The notes below the pieces were generated by a model. It did no database searches, was not told the DNA's origin, and saw only the letters and a program-made list of their open reading frames with translations. Source: Eubacteriales bacterium (GTDB lineage Bacteria > Bacillota > Clostridia > Oscillospirales > CAG-382). Taken from it: a stretch of DNA of 64,000 bases. Positions 21,013 through 27,902 of this stretch are shown in pieces; position 1 is the first letter of the stretch, and each line of letters begins with the position of its first letter. The stretch is taken from the NCBI GenBank assembly GCA_028705495.1, contig JAQWDK010000007.1, positions 1 through 64,000 on the forward strand. Reading direction: 5' to 3'. Made by a program: the position numbers and the translations under genes.

Positions 21013-21894
21013 ATGATTATACATATAGTTAAAGCCGGGGAAACAATGTCGTCCATTTCACGTGATTACGGGGTTTCGCTCGATTGGCTTCTGACAAACA
21101 ATATGGTTCCGAATCCCGACAACCTCCTCGTAGGGCAGTCGATTGTCATCATGTACCCTATAACGATACATATTGTACGTCCGGGGGATACTTTGACGAC
21201 GATAGCGAGAAGCTACGGGATCACATCGAATGAAATCTTCCGCAACAATATCACTCTATATGGAAACCCCGACATCTACCCCGGTCTCGCTCTTGTGATC
21301 GCATACGAAGGAACGTCGCCTTATTCTTTTTATGTCGGCGGTTATGCCTATCCTTATATCGACAAGAAACTGCTTAATCAGTCGCTGCCGTTTATGAGCC
21401 ATCTAATGCCATTTACTTATGGGTTTAAGTCGGACGGATCTCTTGTTATGCTCAACGATGAGGAACTTTTAGCGGCTGCGTTCGAATATGGTTCATCGCC
21501 TTATATGCATTTGTCCACCCTCAATGAAGAAGGGAACTTTGACAGCGAGCTTGCGACATCAATGTTGAACAATCTTGAGGCACAAAATGTACTGCTTCAA
21601 AATGTCCTTGATGTGATGATAGCAAAAAACTATGCAGGGCTTGACATAGACTTTGAATTTATCGGCGGTGAAAACGCACAGGAGTATATAGTATTTATAA
21701 ATAAAGCGACAAAGCTGATGAATTCCCAGGGTTATCCCGTTATTACCGCACTTGCGCCGAAAACATCGGATTCACAGCCGGGTATTCTTTACGAAGGTCA
21801 TGAATATGCGGGCATCGGCGGGGTTTCAAATTTTGTGCTCTTGATGACTTACGAATGGGGATATACATTTCCCCATACTTCTTACTGCCAATAA
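21013..21894 (+). CDS. LysM-GH18 spore peptidoglycan hydrolase, 5' part (interrupted gene)
   Basis: Two LysM peptidoglycan-binding modules (about residues 2-46 and 52-97) are followed by a glycoside hydrolase 18 barrel with the catalytic DxDxE signature at D211, D213 and E215. This is the layout of YaaH/SleL, N-acetylglucosaminidases of the spore coat/cortex made in the mother cell. The barrel breaks off after MTYEWGYT; the last eight codons (FPHTSYCQ) come from inserted DNA. The missing part lies at 27481-27902, and joining the two across the shared core gives a continuous 425-aa protein, the usual length. AAAGGA precedes the ATG. As it stands the product is truncated in its barrel and probably inactive. 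Confidence 0.85.
   Translation: MIIHIVKAGETMSSISRDYGVSLDWLLTNNMVPNPDNLLVGQSIVIMYPITIHIVRPGDTLTTIARSYGITSNEIFRNNITLYGNPDIYPGLALVIAYEGTSPYSFYVGGYAYPYIDKKLLNQSLPFMSHLMPFTYGFKSDGSLVMLNDEELLAAAFEYGSSPYMHLSTLNEEGNFDSELATSMLNNLEAQNVLLQNVLDVMIAKNYAGLDIDFEFIGGENAQEYIVFINKATKLMNSQGYPVITALAPKTSDSQPGILYEGHEYAGIGGVSNFVLLMTYEWGYTFPHTSYCQ
21850..21884. mobile_element. attL junction of the intervening element
   Basis: Host gene sequence ends and element sequence begins at the core ATATACAT (21861-21868). The element-side arm holds CTTCTTA (21878-21884), which mirrors TAAGAAG at 27459-27465 when the attP site is rebuilt; both lie 11 nt from the central AC (21865-21866). Confidence 0.8.
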
Positions 21895-21899
21895 AACAC

Positions 21900-21930
21900 T
21901 TGAGAGTATCGAAAGGTGCTCTATTTTTTT
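21900..21930 (+). terminator. Probable terminator at the left end of the element
   Basis: An imperfect GAG...CTC hairpin (about 21902-21921) followed by TATTTTTTT (21922-21930) would stop transcription arriving from the truncated GH18 gene. Confidence 0.5.
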
Positions 21931-21942
21931 GTGATGGGTATC

Positions 21943-21971
21943 TTGTTTTATTTTTCAAACAGTGGTACAAT
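21943..21971 (+). promoter_or_regulatory. Sigma-A-like promoter of ktrB
   Basis: TTGTTT at 21943-21948, 17-bp spacer, TACAAT at 21966-21971, about 24 nt before the AAGGAG ribosome-binding site of ktrB; the cargo therefore has its own promoter inside the element. Confidence 0.65.
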
Positions 21972-22009
21972 AACGCATCAGGAAATCATATAGGAAGGAG
22001 AGTATTTTA

Positions 22010-23332
22010 ATAAAAAATCACTTTTCTTTAAATTCGTTTCAAATTATAGCGCTTGGCTTTGCCGGGGTTATCTTAATCGGCGCTTTAATCTTAATGCTGC
22101 CGATTTCATCCTCAGCCGGAGTTGTAACACCTTTTACTGACGCTTTATTCACTTCAACGACCTCGGTTTGTGTTACTGGACTTGTTGTTAAGGACACCGG
22201 AACATATTGGTCTACATTCGGGCACAGCGTAATTCTGCTGTTGATTCAAATAGGCGGTTTAGGTGTCGTTACAGTTGCCGCATCATTTGCCTTAATCGCA
22301 GGGCGGCGCATAGGGCTTTTTCAGCGGAGCGCAATGCAAGAAGCGGTTGCAGCACCTAAAATAAGCGGAATTGTCAAGCTCACCACATTTATTCTCAAAG
22401 TCACATTTACAGTCGAGCTTATCGGCGCTGTTATTATGGCGCCAACTTTTATAAAAGATTTTGGATGGGGTCGGGGCATTTGGATGTCCTTCTTCCATTC
22501 CATTTCGGCGTTCTGCAACGCTGGTATCGACCTGATGGGTCAAAGAGAGCCTTTTTCATCAATGATAAGTTATGTCGGAAATCCGGCAATTAATATTGCG
22601 ATTATGGGTTTGATAATAATCGGCGGCATAGGCTTTCTGACTTGGGACGATATACGCAGTCACGGTATCCATATAAGAAAATACTGTATGCAAAGCAAAG
22701 TAATCCTTGTAATGACAGGCATTCTTATAATTGTTCCGACAACTTGCTTCTTCTTCCTCGAATTTGCCGATATGCCTTTTTGGGACAGGCTTTTAGCTTC
22801 CTTCTTTCAGGCTGTTACACCGAGAACTGCAGGTTTTAACACAGTTAATTTAGCGGCTATGAGCGAGCCGGGTCAGATGGCAATGGTTTTTCTGATGCTG
22901 GTTGGCGGCTCCCCCGGTTCTACTGCAGGCGGTATGAAAACGACCACCTTTGCGGTCCTTATCGCTTGCGCGGTCTCTATATTCCGTAAACGTGACAGCG
23001 CACAGTTTTTAGGTAGACGAATCGCACACGAGGTAATTTTAACCGCATCAACCATAACTCTGATGTATGTCAGCCTTTGTGTGGGAGGGGCGATGATAAT
23101 AAGCTATTATGAGGGACTGCCAATCCTGACTTGTATGTATGAAACCGCATCTGCTGTGGGCACTGTCGGACTGACGCTCGGCATCACACCTGAGCTTGGC
23201 ACCCTTTCAAGGTGGATACTTATACTGCTTATGTATATCGGCCGTATTGGCGGGCTAACACTTATTTATGCAACGTTATCGGGCAAAACTCAAATGGGTA
23301 AGTTTCCTCTGGAAAAAATAACAGTCGGATAG
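22010..23332 (+). CDS. ktrB: KtrB/TrkH-type potassium-transporting subunit
   Basis: Membrane subunit of a Ktr K+ (Na+-dependent) uptake system. The four pore-loop filters are visible: TTSVCVTGLVV, FCNAGIDLMG, TPRTAGFNT and SAVGTVGLTLG, each with its conserved glycine. Family homology starts well before the first ATG (22094): the residues FQIIALGFAGVILIGALILMLPI are encoded from 22034 onward. Between the upstream in-frame stop (21971-21973) and 22094 there is no ATG, GTG or TTG; AAGGAG at 21995-22000 lies 9 nt before an ATA codon at 22010. I therefore give 22010 as the likely non-standard start (440 aa, the usual KtrB length). It pairs with ktrA downstream. Confidence 0.85.
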   Translation: MKNHFSLNSFQIIALGFAGVILIGALILMLPISSSAGVVTPFTDALFTSTTSVCVTGLVVKDTGTYWSTFGHSVILLLIQIGGLGVVTVAASFALIAGRRIGLFQRSAMQEAVAAPKISGIVKLTTFILKVTFTVELIGAVIMAPTFIKDFGWGRGIWMSFFHSISAFCNAGIDLMGQREPFSSMISYVGNPAINIAIMGLIIIGGIGFLTWDDIRSHGIHIRKYCMQSKVILVMTGILIIVPTTCFFFLEFADMPFWDRLLASFFQAVTPRTAGFNTVNLAAMSEPGQMAMVFLMLVGGSPGSTAGGMKTTTFAVLIACAVSIFRKRDSAQFLGRRIAHEVILTASTITLMYVSLCVGGAMIISYYEGLPILTCMYETASAVGTVGLTLGITPELGTLSRWILILLMYIGRIGGLTLIYATLSGKTQMGKFPLEKITVG

Positions 23333-23476
23333 CGTGAATTATAGCTTAAGCTATTTCCGGCTACAGGCTATTCACGCATTGAAATTCAATTTCATTGAAT
23401 TTCCGAACGTTCAACAAAGCTATTTCCAGCTACAGATTATTCACGCAGACTATTCAAGAATGTGCCGCTTTGCGGC
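23333..23476. repeat. Repeat cluster between ktrB and ktrA
   Basis: Two 31-bp direct repeats (23348-23378 and 23417-23447) start AAGCTATTTCC and end TATTCACGCA; between them is an AATTCAATTTCATTGAATTT dyad (about 23383-23402). A GCCGCTTTGCGGC hairpin (23464-23476) follows and is shared with the segment before the gene at 209. Looks like a dispersed non-coding repeat that landed between the two subunit genes. Confidence 0.6.
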
Positions 23477-23491
23477 GGAATGGAATTTAAT

Positions 23492-24139
23492 ATGAAATCG
23501 ATTTTATTAATAGGACTTGGCAGATTTGGCAGACATATCGCCATTCAACTAAACCAGCTCGGACATCAGGTGATGGCGGTTGACCACGATGAAGAACGAG
23601 TAAACGATATTATGGGGGTTGTCACAAACGCACAAATCGGCGATAGCACAAACGAAGCGTTTCTCTCTTCCCTTGGTGTAAAGAATTTTGATGTATGTAT
23701 TGTTGCAATCGCAAATGATTTTCAAAGCTCCCTTGAAACGACTTCACTACTCAAAGAATTAGGAGCAAAAATGGTGGTTTCGAGAGCGGAACGGGACGGA
23801 CAAGCTAAACTGCTACTCCGCAACGGAGCTGATGAGGTTGTATATCCCGAAAAGCAGGTCGCAAAATGGGCGGCAATACGGTACAGCGCGGACCATATCC
23901 TCGACTATATCGAGCTTGATGAAACACATTCTATTTTTGAAGTTGCTGTACCTGAGGAATGGGTAGGTAAAACTGTCGGTCAAATTGATATCCGTAAAAA
24001 ATACAACGTCAATATAATGGCAGTAAAGCAAAACGAAAAAATGAATATGGAGGTTACACCGAACACAGTTTTAACAAATGATAAAACCCTATTGGTGCTC
24101 GGCGAGTATAAAGCTTTGCAAAAGTGCTTTAGGATATGA
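23492..24139 (+). CDS. ktrA: KtrA/TrkA-type RCK regulatory subunit
   Basis: A 215-aa cytoplasmic protein with an N-terminal RCK Rossmann domain (IGLGRFGRHIAIQLNQLGH, then VMAVDHDEERV) and a C-terminal RCK_C domain (VGQIDIRKKYNVNIMAV ... LLVLGEYKAL). Such subunits form octameric rings that gate KtrB by binding ATP/ADP, and c-di-AMP in many Firmicutes. The start at 23492 follows the family N-terminus (MKSILLIGLG); in-frame ATG 23480 and the open frame from 23462 would only add repeat-derived residues. It lies 159 bp after ktrB, separated by repeats. Its stop is embedded in the first of two long hairpins. Confidence 0.9.
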   Translation: MKSILLIGLGRFGRHIAIQLNQLGHQVMAVDHDEERVNDIMGVVTNAQIGDSTNEAFLSSLGVKNFDVCIVAIANDFQSSLETTSLLKELGAKMVVSRAERDGQAKLLLRNGADEVVYPEKQVAKWAAIRYSADHILDYIELDETHSIFEVAVPEEWVGKTVGQIDIRKKYNVNIMAVKQNEKMNMEVTPNTVLTNDKTLLVLGEYKALQKCFRI

Positions 24140-24211
24140 CATTCTGAATTAAAATTCCGAATGTCATATCCTCGAAATATTATTGAAATATAAAAATTTC
24201 AATAATATTTC
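24131..24211 (+). repeat. Two consecutive perfect hairpins after ktrA
   Basis: A 14-bp perfect stem, AGGATATGACATTC (24131-24144) with 24159-24172, contains the ktrA stop codon; a 16-bp perfect stem, GAAATATTATTGAAAT (24174-24189) with 24196-24211, follows with a 6-nt loop. No long T tract follows, so they may terminate weakly or stabilise the ktr mRNA end. Confidence 0.7.
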
Positions 24212-24297
24212 TGTTGTATTCCTTACCAAAATAAAATTCTGTATAATTATTTTTCCCTCTTTCTTTGCATGGAAATACAAATAAAAGTGGAGAAAAA

Positions 24298-25617
24298 TTG
24301 ATTTTAGCATTAATAATTTTTATTATTACTTATGTCCTGATGCTCGTTTTACAAAAATACAGACCTTGGATTGCGCTAAGCAGTGCGGCGGTATTTATTG
24401 CGCTTGGACTTTTTGGAGTGTATAATTTTACAATCTTCACCGCGCTGAATGCGGTCGATTACAATGTCCTTATGATGATCGGCGGAACAATGGGAATTGT
24501 CACACTTTTTATAGAAAGCAAAATGCCGGCAAGGCTTGCAGAAATGCTGATTTCAAAAGTGCCGAATGTAAAATGGGCAGTCACGGTATTGGCTTTATTC
24601 GCCGGAGTTGTAAGTGCATTTGTCGACAATGTTGCAACTGTTTTAATGGTAGCGCCAATCGGCTTGGCTATTTCAAAAAAACTAAAGGTATCTCCTGTTC
24701 CAGTGCTTATCGCAATTGCTGTTTCTTCGAATCTTCAAGGCGCTGCGACATTGGTCGGAGACACCACAAGCATACTGCTTGGCGGCTATGCTGAGATGAA
24801 TTTCCTCGATTTCTTCTGGATGAAGGGGAAACCGGGCATATTCTGGGGTGTTGAACTCGGCGCTATAGCATCTATTTTTGTACTTCTCTTTTTGTTCCGA
24901 AAAGAAAATCAAGGCGTATCAGCAGAGGTTGAAACAGAAGTTACCGACTACTTCCCGTCCTTTCTGATGATTGGCACGGTAGTGCTCTTAATTATAGCCT
25001 CCTTTTTACCTGAGCCGACAAGTGCGGTATTGCAGACAATTTATAGCCTCAGAAGCGGTTTAATCTGTCTTATTCTTTGTTTAATAGGCATCATCCGCTC
25101 ATGTATTATAAAGAAATCAGGCGAAACCTTTAAGCAAGTATGGGACGAATTAGATAAAGACACATTGCTGCTTCTCTTTGGATTATTTATTGTGATAGAA
25201 GGCATCAAAACAGCTGGTGTTATCGATGCGGTCGCAGATTTATTCTATAAGGTATCAGGGGACAACCCTTTCCTTCTTTACACTCTCATTGTCTTTGCTT
25301 CGGTTATATTATCGGCATTTATCGACAATATCCCGTATGTTGCCACAATGCTTCCGGTTGTTTCAAGCATAGCAGCGCTAATGAATGGCGGTGCAGGAAT
25401 GGAGCCTTATGTGTTCTATTTTGGTCTTCTTACCGGTGCAACCCTTGGCGGTAACTTGACACCGATAGGAGCATCTGCAAATATAGCCGCTATCGGTATA
25501 CTCCGCAAAAACGGAGAGACTGTCAGCTTAAAGGACTTTTTAAGAATCGGTGTGCCGTTTACATTATTTGCCGTTTTAGTAGGATATGTTTTTATATGGC
25601 TGGTCTGGGGAATGTAA
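24298..25617 (+). CDS. Ion-transporter-superfamily permease (ArsB/NhaD/SLC13-like)
   Basis: A 439-aa membrane protein with about 11 transmembrane segments in two inverted repeats; each repeat carries the family's hairpin motif (FVDNVATVLMVAP and FIDNIPYVATMLP), as in ArsB, NhaD and related anion or Na+/H+ carriers. The substrate cannot be told from sequence. TTG at 24298 is chosen as start because GTGGAG lies 5 nt upstream and the hydrophobic N-terminus begins there. A terminator follows at 25643. Its place after ktrAB suggests a shared job in K+/Na+ or osmotic balance. Confidence 0.82.
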   Translation: MILALIIFIITYVLMLVLQKYRPWIALSSAAVFIALGLFGVYNFTIFTALNAVDYNVLMMIGGTMGIVTLFIESKMPARLAEMLISKVPNVKWAVTVLALFAGVVSAFVDNVATVLMVAPIGLAISKKLKVSPVPVLIAIAVSSNLQGAATLVGDTTSILLGGYAEMNFLDFFWMKGKPGIFWGVELGAIASIFVLLFLFRKENQGVSAEVETEVTDYFPSFLMIGTVVLLIIASFLPEPTSAVLQTIYSLRSGLICLILCLIGIIRSCIIKKSGETFKQVWDELDKDTLLLLFGLFIVIEGIKTAGVIDAVADLFYKVSGDNPFLLYTLIVFASVILSAFIDNIPYVATMLPVVSSIAALMNGGAGMEPYVFYFGLLTGATLGGNLTPIGASANIAAIGILRKNGETVSLKDFLRIGVPFTLFAVLVGYVFIWLVWGM

Positions 25618-25642
25618 AACAAAAAGACAATAATAAATTAAT

Positions 25643-25681
25643 TAAGCCGTGCAACCTTTTCGGGTCGCGCGGCTTATTTTT
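25643..25681 (+). terminator. Intrinsic terminator after the transporter gene
   Basis: TAAGCCGTGC (25643-25652) pairs with GCGCGGCTTA (25667-25676), with an inner ACC/GGT stem, followed by TTTTT. It separates the cargo genes from the recombinase operon. Confidence 0.85.
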
Positions 25682-25703
25682 AACTTGTTATAAAGGCATA
25701 CAA
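25674..25703 (+). promoter_or_regulatory. Possible sporulation (sigma-E-like) promoter of the recombinase operon
   Basis: CATACAA at 25697-25703 resembles the sigma-E -10 (CATACAnT); TTATTTTT at 25674-25681, about 15 bp upstream, resembles its -35 loosely and overlaps the terminator's T tract. No good sigma-A promoter was seen before 25737. Weak evidence. Confidence 0.25.
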
Positions 25704-25736
25704 GGCCTCATATATTAGAAAAAAGGGGGGCTTGTA

Positions 25737-25904
25737 ATGGCGATAATAAAAGTAGTGGAGTTCGGAAGCTGTGTAGTTGAAATATATGACGACTACATAA
25801 CAAATGAAAGCTTAGAAAAGATAAAGCGGCAACTGTCGGAAATCCTTAGCAGAGAACTGTCAAAAAACCCTGAGTTTTACGATGAAATTAGAAAAACCGA
25901 ATAG
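25737..25904 (+). CDS. 55-aa protein upstream of the recombinase; candidate directionality factor
   Basis: A short gene (ATG 25737, TAG 25902-25904) with a strong GGGGGG site 6 nt upstream. The product begins MAIIKVVEFGSCVVEIYDDY and continues as a charged, probably helical segment ending EIRKTE. I do not recognise a family. It ends 12 nt before the recombinase start, so the two are almost certainly cotranscribed. Recombination directionality factors of serine integrases are often this small (SprB of SPbeta is about this size) and unrelated to each other in sequence, so this is an inferred candidate only. An antitoxin-like or regulatory role is also possible. Confidence 0.65.
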   Translation: MAIIKVVEFGSCVVEIYDDYITNESLEKIKRQLSEILSRELSKNPEFYDEIRKTE

Positions 25905-25916
25905 AGCGAGGTTCAA

Positions 25917-27461
25917 ATGGAGCGATATGCGATTTATTTAAGAAAGTCAAGAGCAGATTTGGAACTTGAAAAGTACGGCGAAACGGAAACCCTTGCGAGG
26001 CACGAAAAAACACTAATTGAGCTTGCAGAGAAAAAGAAACTTTATATAGCTGGAATATACAAAGAAGTTGTATCAGGTGAAACAATCAGCGCAAGACCCG
26101 AGGTGCAAAAGCTCTTAACGGATGTAGAAGGCGGACAATACACCGGCGTGATAGTGATGGAGATTGAAAGGCTTGCAAGGGGCGATACAATTGATCAGGG
26201 TATAATCGCAAAAACCTTCAAAGAAAGCTCAACAAAAATAGTAACTCCTTCAAAAATATACGATCCGGACAACGAATTTGATGAAGAGTATTTCGAATTC
26301 GGCTTATTTATGAGCCGGCGGGAATACAAAACTATAAACCGCCGCATCCAGAGGGGACGAATAGCTTCTGCCAAAGAGGGTAAAGCAATTATGTCAACTG
26401 CGCCTTACGGATATGATAAAGTAAAAATTAAAAACGGAAAAGGTTTTACCCTAAAACCTAATAAAGAAGCAAAAATCGTAAAACTTATATACAGTCTTTA
26501 CAACTGTGGCGATGGTGCGAACTCTATTGCAAAAAAGCTTGATGAGATGAAAGTAGGGCCGAGAAAAGGTGATAAATGGAGCAAATCGACAATAACCGAC
26601 ATTCTCAAAAACCCAGTGTATATGGGAATGGTCAGATGGGGGTACGAAAAAGAAAAGAAGAAAATTACCCAAGGAACTGAAAGAACCGTAAGAGAAAAAA
26701 GAGATGAATATATTTATGTAATAGGTTTACACCCTGCAATAATAACGAAAGAAACATTTGAAAAAGCTCAAAAAAGAAGAAAGCACAACACACATAAATG
26801 CACTACACTCAGCAACGAATTAAAAAACCCGCTTGCAGGGCTTATATACTGTCAAAAATGCGGCAGTTTGATGTCGAGATTGGGCTGCAATCGAAAGAAC
26901 AAATACGATTCAATTATTTGCCTAAACAGAGATTGTGATAATGTGTCAACTCCTTTATTCCTTCTCGAAAACGCAGTTATTAAAGCATTGGAAGAATGCA
27001 TCGGAAAATTAGAAATAAATATTGAGCTTAAGAAAGATTATGTACTTGGAGCGGTAGAAGAAGATGCCGCAAAGGAGTTAAATAAATCATTAGCGACAAC
27101 CGAAAAACAGCTGTCGCAAACATACGATTTCTTGGAGCAGGGGTTGTATAGTCCCGAGGTTTTCAAGCAAAGAAATAGCGAGCTTCAAACGAGAAAAATA
27201 GAAACTGAACAGGCGATAATAAAGATAATTGAGGAAGATAAAAATAGAAATTGCGCTATTTTACGCATACCACAAGCAAAAAACTTTTTTAAAGTCTATC
27301 ACAAAATCCCTACCGCAGAAGGAAAGAATCAATCTCTGAAAATTATAATAAACAAAGTAGAATACCTAAAAGAAAGAGCCAATACAAAAGGGAGCGGTAT
27401 GAAGGAAAATTTTAAGGTTAAAATCTATCCCAACTTTGATATGAAAAACGATTACATATAA
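25917..27461 (+). CDS. Large serine recombinase (site-specific integrase/excisionase)
   Basis: A 514-aa large serine recombinase. The catalytic domain has the nucleophile in YLRKSRAD (Ser11), VSGETISARP, and MEIERLARGD with active-site arginines; the recombinase domain (about 150-265) includes RRIQRGRIASAKEGKA and SIAKKLDEMKVGPRKGDKWSKSTI; a zinc ribbon (CQKCGS...CLNRDC) lies near 305-340, then a coiled-coil (about 350-440). All parts needed for activity appear present. It should cut both strands at the central dinucleotide of the att sites, here AC. Its TAA stop (27459-27461) is part of the TAAGAAG arm of attR. GCGAGG precedes the ATG. Confidence 0.95.
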   Translation: MERYAIYLRKSRADLELEKYGETETLARHEKTLIELAEKKKLYIAGIYKEVVSGETISARPEVQKLLTDVEGGQYTGVIVMEIERLARGDTIDQGIIAKTFKESSTKIVTPSKIYDPDNEFDEEYFEFGLFMSRREYKTINRRIQRGRIASAKEGKAIMSTAPYGYDKVKIKNGKGFTLKPNKEAKIVKLIYSLYNCGDGANSIAKKLDEMKVGPRKGDKWSKSTITDILKNPVYMGMVRWGYEKEKKKITQGTERTVREKRDEYIYVIGLHPAIITKETFEKAQKRRKHNTHKCTTLSNELKNPLAGLIYCQKCGSLMSRLGCNRKNKYDSIICLNRDCDNVSTPLFLLENAVIKALEECIGKLEINIELKKDYVLGAVEEDAAKELNKSLATTEKQLSQTYDFLEQGLYSPEVFKQRNSELQTRKIETEQAIIKIIEEDKNRNCAILRIPQAKNFFKVYHKIPTAEGKNQSLKIIINKVEYLKERANTKGSGMKENFKVKIYPNFDMKNDYI

Positions 27462-27495
27462 GAAGAACACGCATATACATATGGCCCCCCGATGC
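27455..27495. mobile_element. attR junction of the intervening element
   Basis: Core ATATACAT at 27473-27480 with central AC at 27477-27478. Left of it, TAAGAAG (27459-27465) is the element arm; right of it host GH18 coding sequence resumes with ATGGCCCCCC. Confidence 0.8.
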
Positions 27496-27902
27496 CGGTG
27501 TCGCCAATACCGTCCATAAGAGCGGTCCTCGACTATGCAGTCACGAGAATTCCACGGGAAAAAATATATTTAGGAATCTCGAATTACGGCTATAACTGGA
27601 CTCTTCCGTTTGTTCCGGGAAAATCAAAGGCAGATTCCATTTCAACCTATGAAGCGCTGGAAATTGCGGCACGAAATAACGCTGTCATACAGTACGACAG
27701 CGATGCGGAAGCGCCGTTCTTTGTGTATAACGAATTCGGAGTCAACCATATTGTATGGTTTGAGGACGCTCGCAGCATCAACGCAAAGCTCGGGCTTGTC
27801 AACGAATATAGATTCCACGGCGCACTGTACTGGAACTTGATGCGCGCGAACCCGCAGAACCTGCTTGTCCTCAACGCACAGGTTAATATAAGAAGATTTT
27901 AG
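27481..27902 (+). pseudogene. LysM-GH18 hydrolase, 3' part (separated from its 5' part)
   Basis: Continuation of the gene at 21013: read in frame from the core it gives GPPMPVSPIPSIRAVLDYAV, then YLGISNYGYNWTLPF and WFEDARSINAKLGLVNEYRFHGALYWNL, the last third of the GH18 barrel as found in YaaH/SleL. Alone it would start at ATG 27492 without a ribosome-binding site and would lack the catalytic residues, so it is probably not expressed as such. 21013-21868 plus 27481-27902 is 1,278 nt, 425 codons and a stop. No frameshift or stop is seen in either half, which suggests selection still acts on the joined gene. Confidence 0.88.

Follow-up and report, generated by a model that had tools for sequence, protein, structure and literature searches.

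A small gene upstream of a large serine recombinase encodes a candidate recombination directionality factor in an element that splits a sleL-type gene

The question raised by this locus is whether a gene of only 55 aa, located directly upstream of a large serine recombinase within an element that splits a sporulation-type gene, specifies the recombination directionality factor (RDF) for that recombinase. For a large serine recombinase, such a factor is one that attL x attR excision requires, that counteracts attP x attB integration and that binds the recombinase in its coiled coil / zinc ribbon region. In SPbeta, in the gin element and in the skin element of C. difficile, a small factor allows excision (PMC4191935, PMC5595907, PMC5025042). 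Published RDFs are described as lacking significant similarity to one another in sequence (PMC5025042), and consequently each of them had to be found singly.

The element spans positions 21861-27472 (5.6 kb) of the window, by which we mean the entire 64-kb stretch of DNA that was analysed, and it interrupts a gene with LysM and GH18 domains at the 8-bp repeat ATATACAT (Table 1). The domains of this gene were assigned by family search and its name, SleL/YaaH, is one that we presume to apply; SleL/YaaH-type genes are sporulation genes. The 5' half ends in LMTYEWGYT, the 3' half resumes with YGPPMPVSPI downstream of the recombinase, and joining of the flanks in silico at ATATACAT gives a single intact frame of 425 aa. 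The 3' half is not decayed, as judged by a pN of 0.10 versus a pS of 0.90 against the uninterrupted copy (75% identity) of G001, a genome of the same genus. A sleL-type match is present in 17 of the 30 genomes searched, our own included, and it crosses the insertion site in 15 of the 29 other genomes (the match of G017 then reaches a contig end); the insertion-site sequence was displayed for 12 of the uninterrupted copies. The locus thus has the features of an intervening element, namely a sporulation-type gene that is split at a short direct repeat and restored in frame by precise excision, and a site-specific recombinase of its own. No phage genes were recognised in the 5.6 kb. The cargo (22094-25617) is composed solely of ion transport genes, which is unusual among the intervening elements in the cited literature, and two near-copies resembling GCTATTTCCGGCTACAGGCTATTCACGCA were noted by eye between trkH and trkA (23340-23460). 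Additionally, the sleL-type gene of G040 (L220, contig C18) breaks exactly at the ATATACAT core on a contig without a recombinase of this clade.

Table 1. Coordinates of the element, its genes and associated sequence features in the window.
Feature	Position	Strand	Basis
5' part of split LysM+GH18 gene	21013..21868	+	domain matches; uninterrupted copies in relatives
Left core copy ATATACAT (attL)	21861..21868	+	
Cargo: TrkH potassium transporter	22094..23332	+	family match
Cargo: TrkA-type regulatory protein	23489..24139	+	TrkA_N/TrkA_C match
Cargo: CitMHS/ArsB-type ion transporter	24265..25617	+	family match
Hairpin then U-rich stretch, likely terminator of transporter operon	25643..25676	+	-21.9 kcal/mol, z -5.3
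CATATATTA, possible mother-cell type -10 element (weak), 19 nt before ATG	25709..25717	+	sequence reading
Ribosome-binding site GGGGGG, ends 6 nt 5' of the ATG of the 55-aa ORF	25725..25730	+	sequence reading
Candidate RDF gene, 55 aa, ATG start	25737..25904	+	ORF list, family profile, fold prediction
Large serine recombinase, 514 aa	25917..27461	+	Pfam Resolvase, Recombinase, Zn_ribbon_recom; structure alignable to SPbeta SprA
Right core copy ATATACAT (attR)	27473..27480	+	
3' part of split LysM+GH18 gene	27481..27902	+	domain match, junction joining

The window contains 415 open stretches of at least 55 codons from stop to stop, so the length of the 55-aa ORF alone is no proof of a gene. What places this ORF above chance is its family homology together with the fixed company that it keeps with the recombinase elsewhere, and on these sequence grounds we regard it as a genuine gene. 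The original prediction gave it a strong ribosome-binding site and a stop 12 nt before the recombinase start and called it the only unassigned gene of the element. All three descriptions were confirmed: GGGGGG lies at the expected place, the gap to the recombinase ATG is 12 nt and the remaining genes match TrkH, TrkA_N/TrkA_C, CitMHS/ArsB and Resolvase/Recombinase/Zn_ribbon_recom. The encoded protein is acidic, with a calculated pI of about 4.7 (family median 4.9), and its predicted fold begins with two strands and continues with helices (mean pLDDT 72.5). The stability of the hairpin that precedes the gene is matched by none of 200 shuffles, and a dedicated terminator scan listed nothing at this hairpin. 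Since this hairpin and its U-rich tail lie between the last transporter gene and the 55-aa gene, the latter probably opens an operon of its own in which the recombinase gene follows.

Upstream of the recombinases of relatives, a small protein with a KFYDDYI-like motif was found repeatedly, and later profiles recovered more divergent family members on either strand. Scored against a profile of 16 members from which it had been left out, the 55-aa protein reached 20.0 bits (E 5.7e-4 over 20,594 frames), which none of 9,874 scored shuffles attained (best 17.5 bits) and which is similar to the scores of other left-out members (L018, 19.6 bits; L095, 18.6 bits). Its profile-profile score was 37.9 against the profile lacking it, and the best of 208 unrelated ORFs scored 17.4 against the profile that includes it. 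A small protein encoded on viral contig L191 is 33% identical over 36 residues, and the recombinase adjoining it is 43% identical. These comparisons identify the 55-aa protein as a weak, divergent member of the small-protein family. Pfam, NCBIfam and PHROG gave no credible family match for it, tblastn in phages gave no match, the viral-contig scan with this protein gave none that was confirmed, a PDB sequence search returned nothing below E 0.16, and structure comparison of the model found no chain with a Z of at least 2 (16 aligned). The host genome has PF07508 at 15 places, and the small family occurs only at this element and as one fragment (L142:5576-5701, contig C47) that has no start and no recombinase nearby.

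The association of the small gene with the recombinase was measured in 391 genomes of the class, which were searched by each protein separately; these searches are out of sample, G058 excepted. The small protein was found in 16 genomes and the recombinase (E 1e-90) in 27, our own included in both counts. With our own genome excluded, the recombinase is present in 14 of 15 genomes that have the small gene versus 12 of 375 others (Fisher 8e-18), and in 13 of the 15 the two lie within about 7.3 kb of one another by search coordinates. Several observations run against an RDF: the small gene of G095 is about 155 kb from the recombinase, G419 has the small gene and no recombinase of the clade, and 12 of the 26 other recombinase-bearing genomes of the class have no family member at the cut-off, some of these being at contig ends and some having weak candidates (e.g. 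L170, L173). A recombinase scan of the genome collection yielded 80 relative loci, and a family member occurs in 66 of them, a count that is in-sample as profile A2 was built partly from those 80 loci. In 52 of the 66 the small gene is upstream on the same strand within 400 nt, in 2 it is divergent within 400 nt and in 12 it is elsewhere. Among the 14 loci without a member, 8 have at most 105 nt of upstream sequence, and the other six have 1.0 kb (L019), 4.4 kb (L072) or about 8 kb (L078, L082, L096, L097). Absence of the gene beside close recombinase homologues had been named as evidence that would speak against an RDF, and the outcome supports the prediction, since a member is present at 66 of the 80 loci. 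Against it, the 20-kb locus of the closest recombinase found (L103, 54-55% identity) lacks the small gene. Viral loci have the small gene in 6 of 10 cases, several of which duplicate training members exactly or nearly so. The element that carries the recombinase also encodes the small protein, as expected of an RDF, and pairwise distances of the two proteins correlate across 37 pairs (r=0.65, with none of 5000 permutations as high).

The recombinase part of a model in which the small protein and recombinase were fused in one chain aligns to SPbeta SprA structures with Z 17-21 and, since the domains are hinged, an rmsd of 18-30; the small part has low confidence (pLDDT 45-72) and yields no information on its contacts. 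This model was built on an alignment of the window with 13 in-frame stretches taken from loci of relatives, 18 recombinases on their own and two small proteins on their own. With Mn_catalase, Asn_synthase and spore_sigmaK as target families, half of a tested host gene lies no more than 800 nt from the recombinase end in 74 of 109 loci, a set that includes a few duplicates (e.g. L072/L171, L077/L107). These halves are of sporulation-type genes and belong to manganese catalases that we take to be CotJC (64 loci), asparagine synthase (asnB, 4), sigK (3) and sleL (3), and the remaining 35 loci have no host half within 800 nt. A large group of the clade (L018-L097, L104-L182) sits at CotJC-type halves, for the most part in gut Clostridia, and occurs in either orientation. 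A second sleL element, L170, measures about 3.8 kb, has the same core and orientation as in the window, and carries a weak member of the small-protein family plus a HicA-type gene. At L019:1017-3455 a relative occupies the identical sleL core in the opposite orientation, with the recombinase end toward the 5' half of the gene. The recombinase at L103:8428-9972 stands alone beside a gene that we presume to be jag-type, at a distance of 4.7 kb from an intact sleL, and we interpret this recombinase as a remnant or domesticated copy. The host genome also has a truncated relative (53% identity; L110:7900-10148, contig C6) with a transposase, presumably IS30-type, at its broken end. Our literature search found no report that intervening elements in Clostridia repeatedly target cotJC or sleL.

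Among known systems, the closest precedent by analogy is skr-spoIVCA of the skin element in B. subtilis sigK, a better one than SprA/SprB, as here too a small RDF ORF directly precedes the recombinase gene in an element that splits a sporulation gene; Skr differs in being 64 aa and in overlapping spoIVCA by 101 nt (PMC6957869). SPbeta in spsM (L098) shares a recombinase of the same fold, a small acidic factor and restoration of a sporulation gene, but SPbeta is a phage and SprB is encoded at the other end of the prophage (PMC4191935). The C. difficile skin element likewise couples a large serine recombinase (CD1231) with a small acidic RDF (CD1234, acidic as is SprB) in a split sporulation gene, although CD1234 is 72 aa and a separate unit controlled by sigE and SpoIIID (PMC5025042). 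The gin element in gerE is also non-phage, interrupts a sporulation gene and has a recombinase (GirC) with a small RDF (GirX, 42 aa), but is 28.6 kb with three recombinases (PMC5595907). Homology of the 55-aa protein to SprB was considered and rejected, as profile comparisons gave no sequence relation. The initial expectation that RDFs of different systems are non-homologous fails within this clade, where one family spans several targets and some phages. For the phage phi3T, inserted in kamA (PMC6957869), we took phi3T_200 as the RDF from its position. It scores 21.1 against the family profile, which none of 150 column shuffles reaches, but the match covers just 21 columns and its probability is only 21%. 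Compared as a single sequence it scores 19.5, and the highest score among 208 unrelated ORFs is 17.4. These scores do no more than suggest a relationship between phi3T_200 and the family.

We consider it likely that the 55-aa gene encodes the RDF of the adjoining recombinase, as argued by its conserved company, size, charge and precedent; the proposal made from place and size is strengthened by family membership, conserved pairing with the recombinase, the location of the clade's recombinases at halves of sporulation-type genes, the intact gene that excision would restore and the gene order of skr-spoIVCA. By itself, the recombinase would integrate the circular element at ATATACAT of the sleL-type gene; with the small protein bound, the reaction would switch to recombination between the left and right ends, thereby releasing the element and restoring the 425-aa gene in frame. 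Binding by the small protein, the switch in direction and mother-cell timing are steps that we infer. It is unlikely that the small protein instead regulates the element without switching direction, either by repressing or activating the recombinase gene or by only blocking re-integration. As with regulators, its gene frequently lies just upstream of the recombinase gene or diverges from it, but the protein matches no known DNA-binding family, the company with the recombinase is kept from kilobases away and on either strand, and divergence of the small protein tracks that of the recombinase. Co-inheritance alone could produce this last correlation, and a passenger with an unrelated role (e.g. 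an antitoxin or anti-phage peptide), linked only by shared transmission, would fit with cargo that varies between elements, such as the HicA-type gene of L170; yet such a passenger is quite improbable, given that the small family is conserved while other cargo is not, and that it is present in phages and, as a weak match, in the 3.8-kb element. A chance open frame, for which the abundance of frames of this length and the lack of a curated family match might be cited, is dismissed as very improbable by a family score above all scored shuffles, the L191 pair and the ribosome-binding site.

The sequence TAGGACAA, which resembles what we take to be the SpoIIID consensus, precedes the small gene in 6 of 32 relatives outside the main cotJC group (mean 0.13 and maximum 2 in 200 shuffles) and none of 112 recombinase genes. 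Four of the six boxes are 44-46 nt 5' of the annotated ATG, and the other two are farther away because of the start chosen. No such box precedes the small gene of the window, which counts against the RDF assignment, and CATAAATTTTAAAGAGG, recurrent upstream in the co-directional cotJC group, is also absent in the window. The weak CATATATTA was recognised from what we presume to be the mother-cell -10 consensus, and a sigma-70 promoter scan found none in this region. A relaxed motif, WWRRACAR, was dismissed as a sign of SpoIIID control because it is equally common before recombinase genes (47 of 112) and small genes (12 of 32); a literature search found no paper giving this motif. CD1234 is controlled by sigE and SpoIIID (PMC5025042). 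With neither TAGGACAA nor CATAAATTTTAAAGAGG and only CATATATTA in the window, mother-cell timing of this element during sporulation is plausible by analogy.

The system is of a known kind, and as far as our searches reach the family and its targets are new, with Skr, CD1234 and GirX compared by description only. More tentatively, and with rather less confidence than we place in the RDF itself, one RDF family that possibly extends to the phi3T factor may drive sporulation-timed excision across the recombinase clade in sleL-, cotJC-, sigK- and asnB-type genes. In the present case sporulation would cost the mother cell its K+ uptake genes along with another ion transporter, and would give it back a cortex-lytic enzyme. 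The loci described here indicate that cotJC and sleL are repeatedly hit by intervening elements in Clostridia. A family that tracks one recombinase clade across its targets would allow RDFs to be predicted for many recombinases, which would be useful for sporulation biology as well as for reversible DNA-integration tools.
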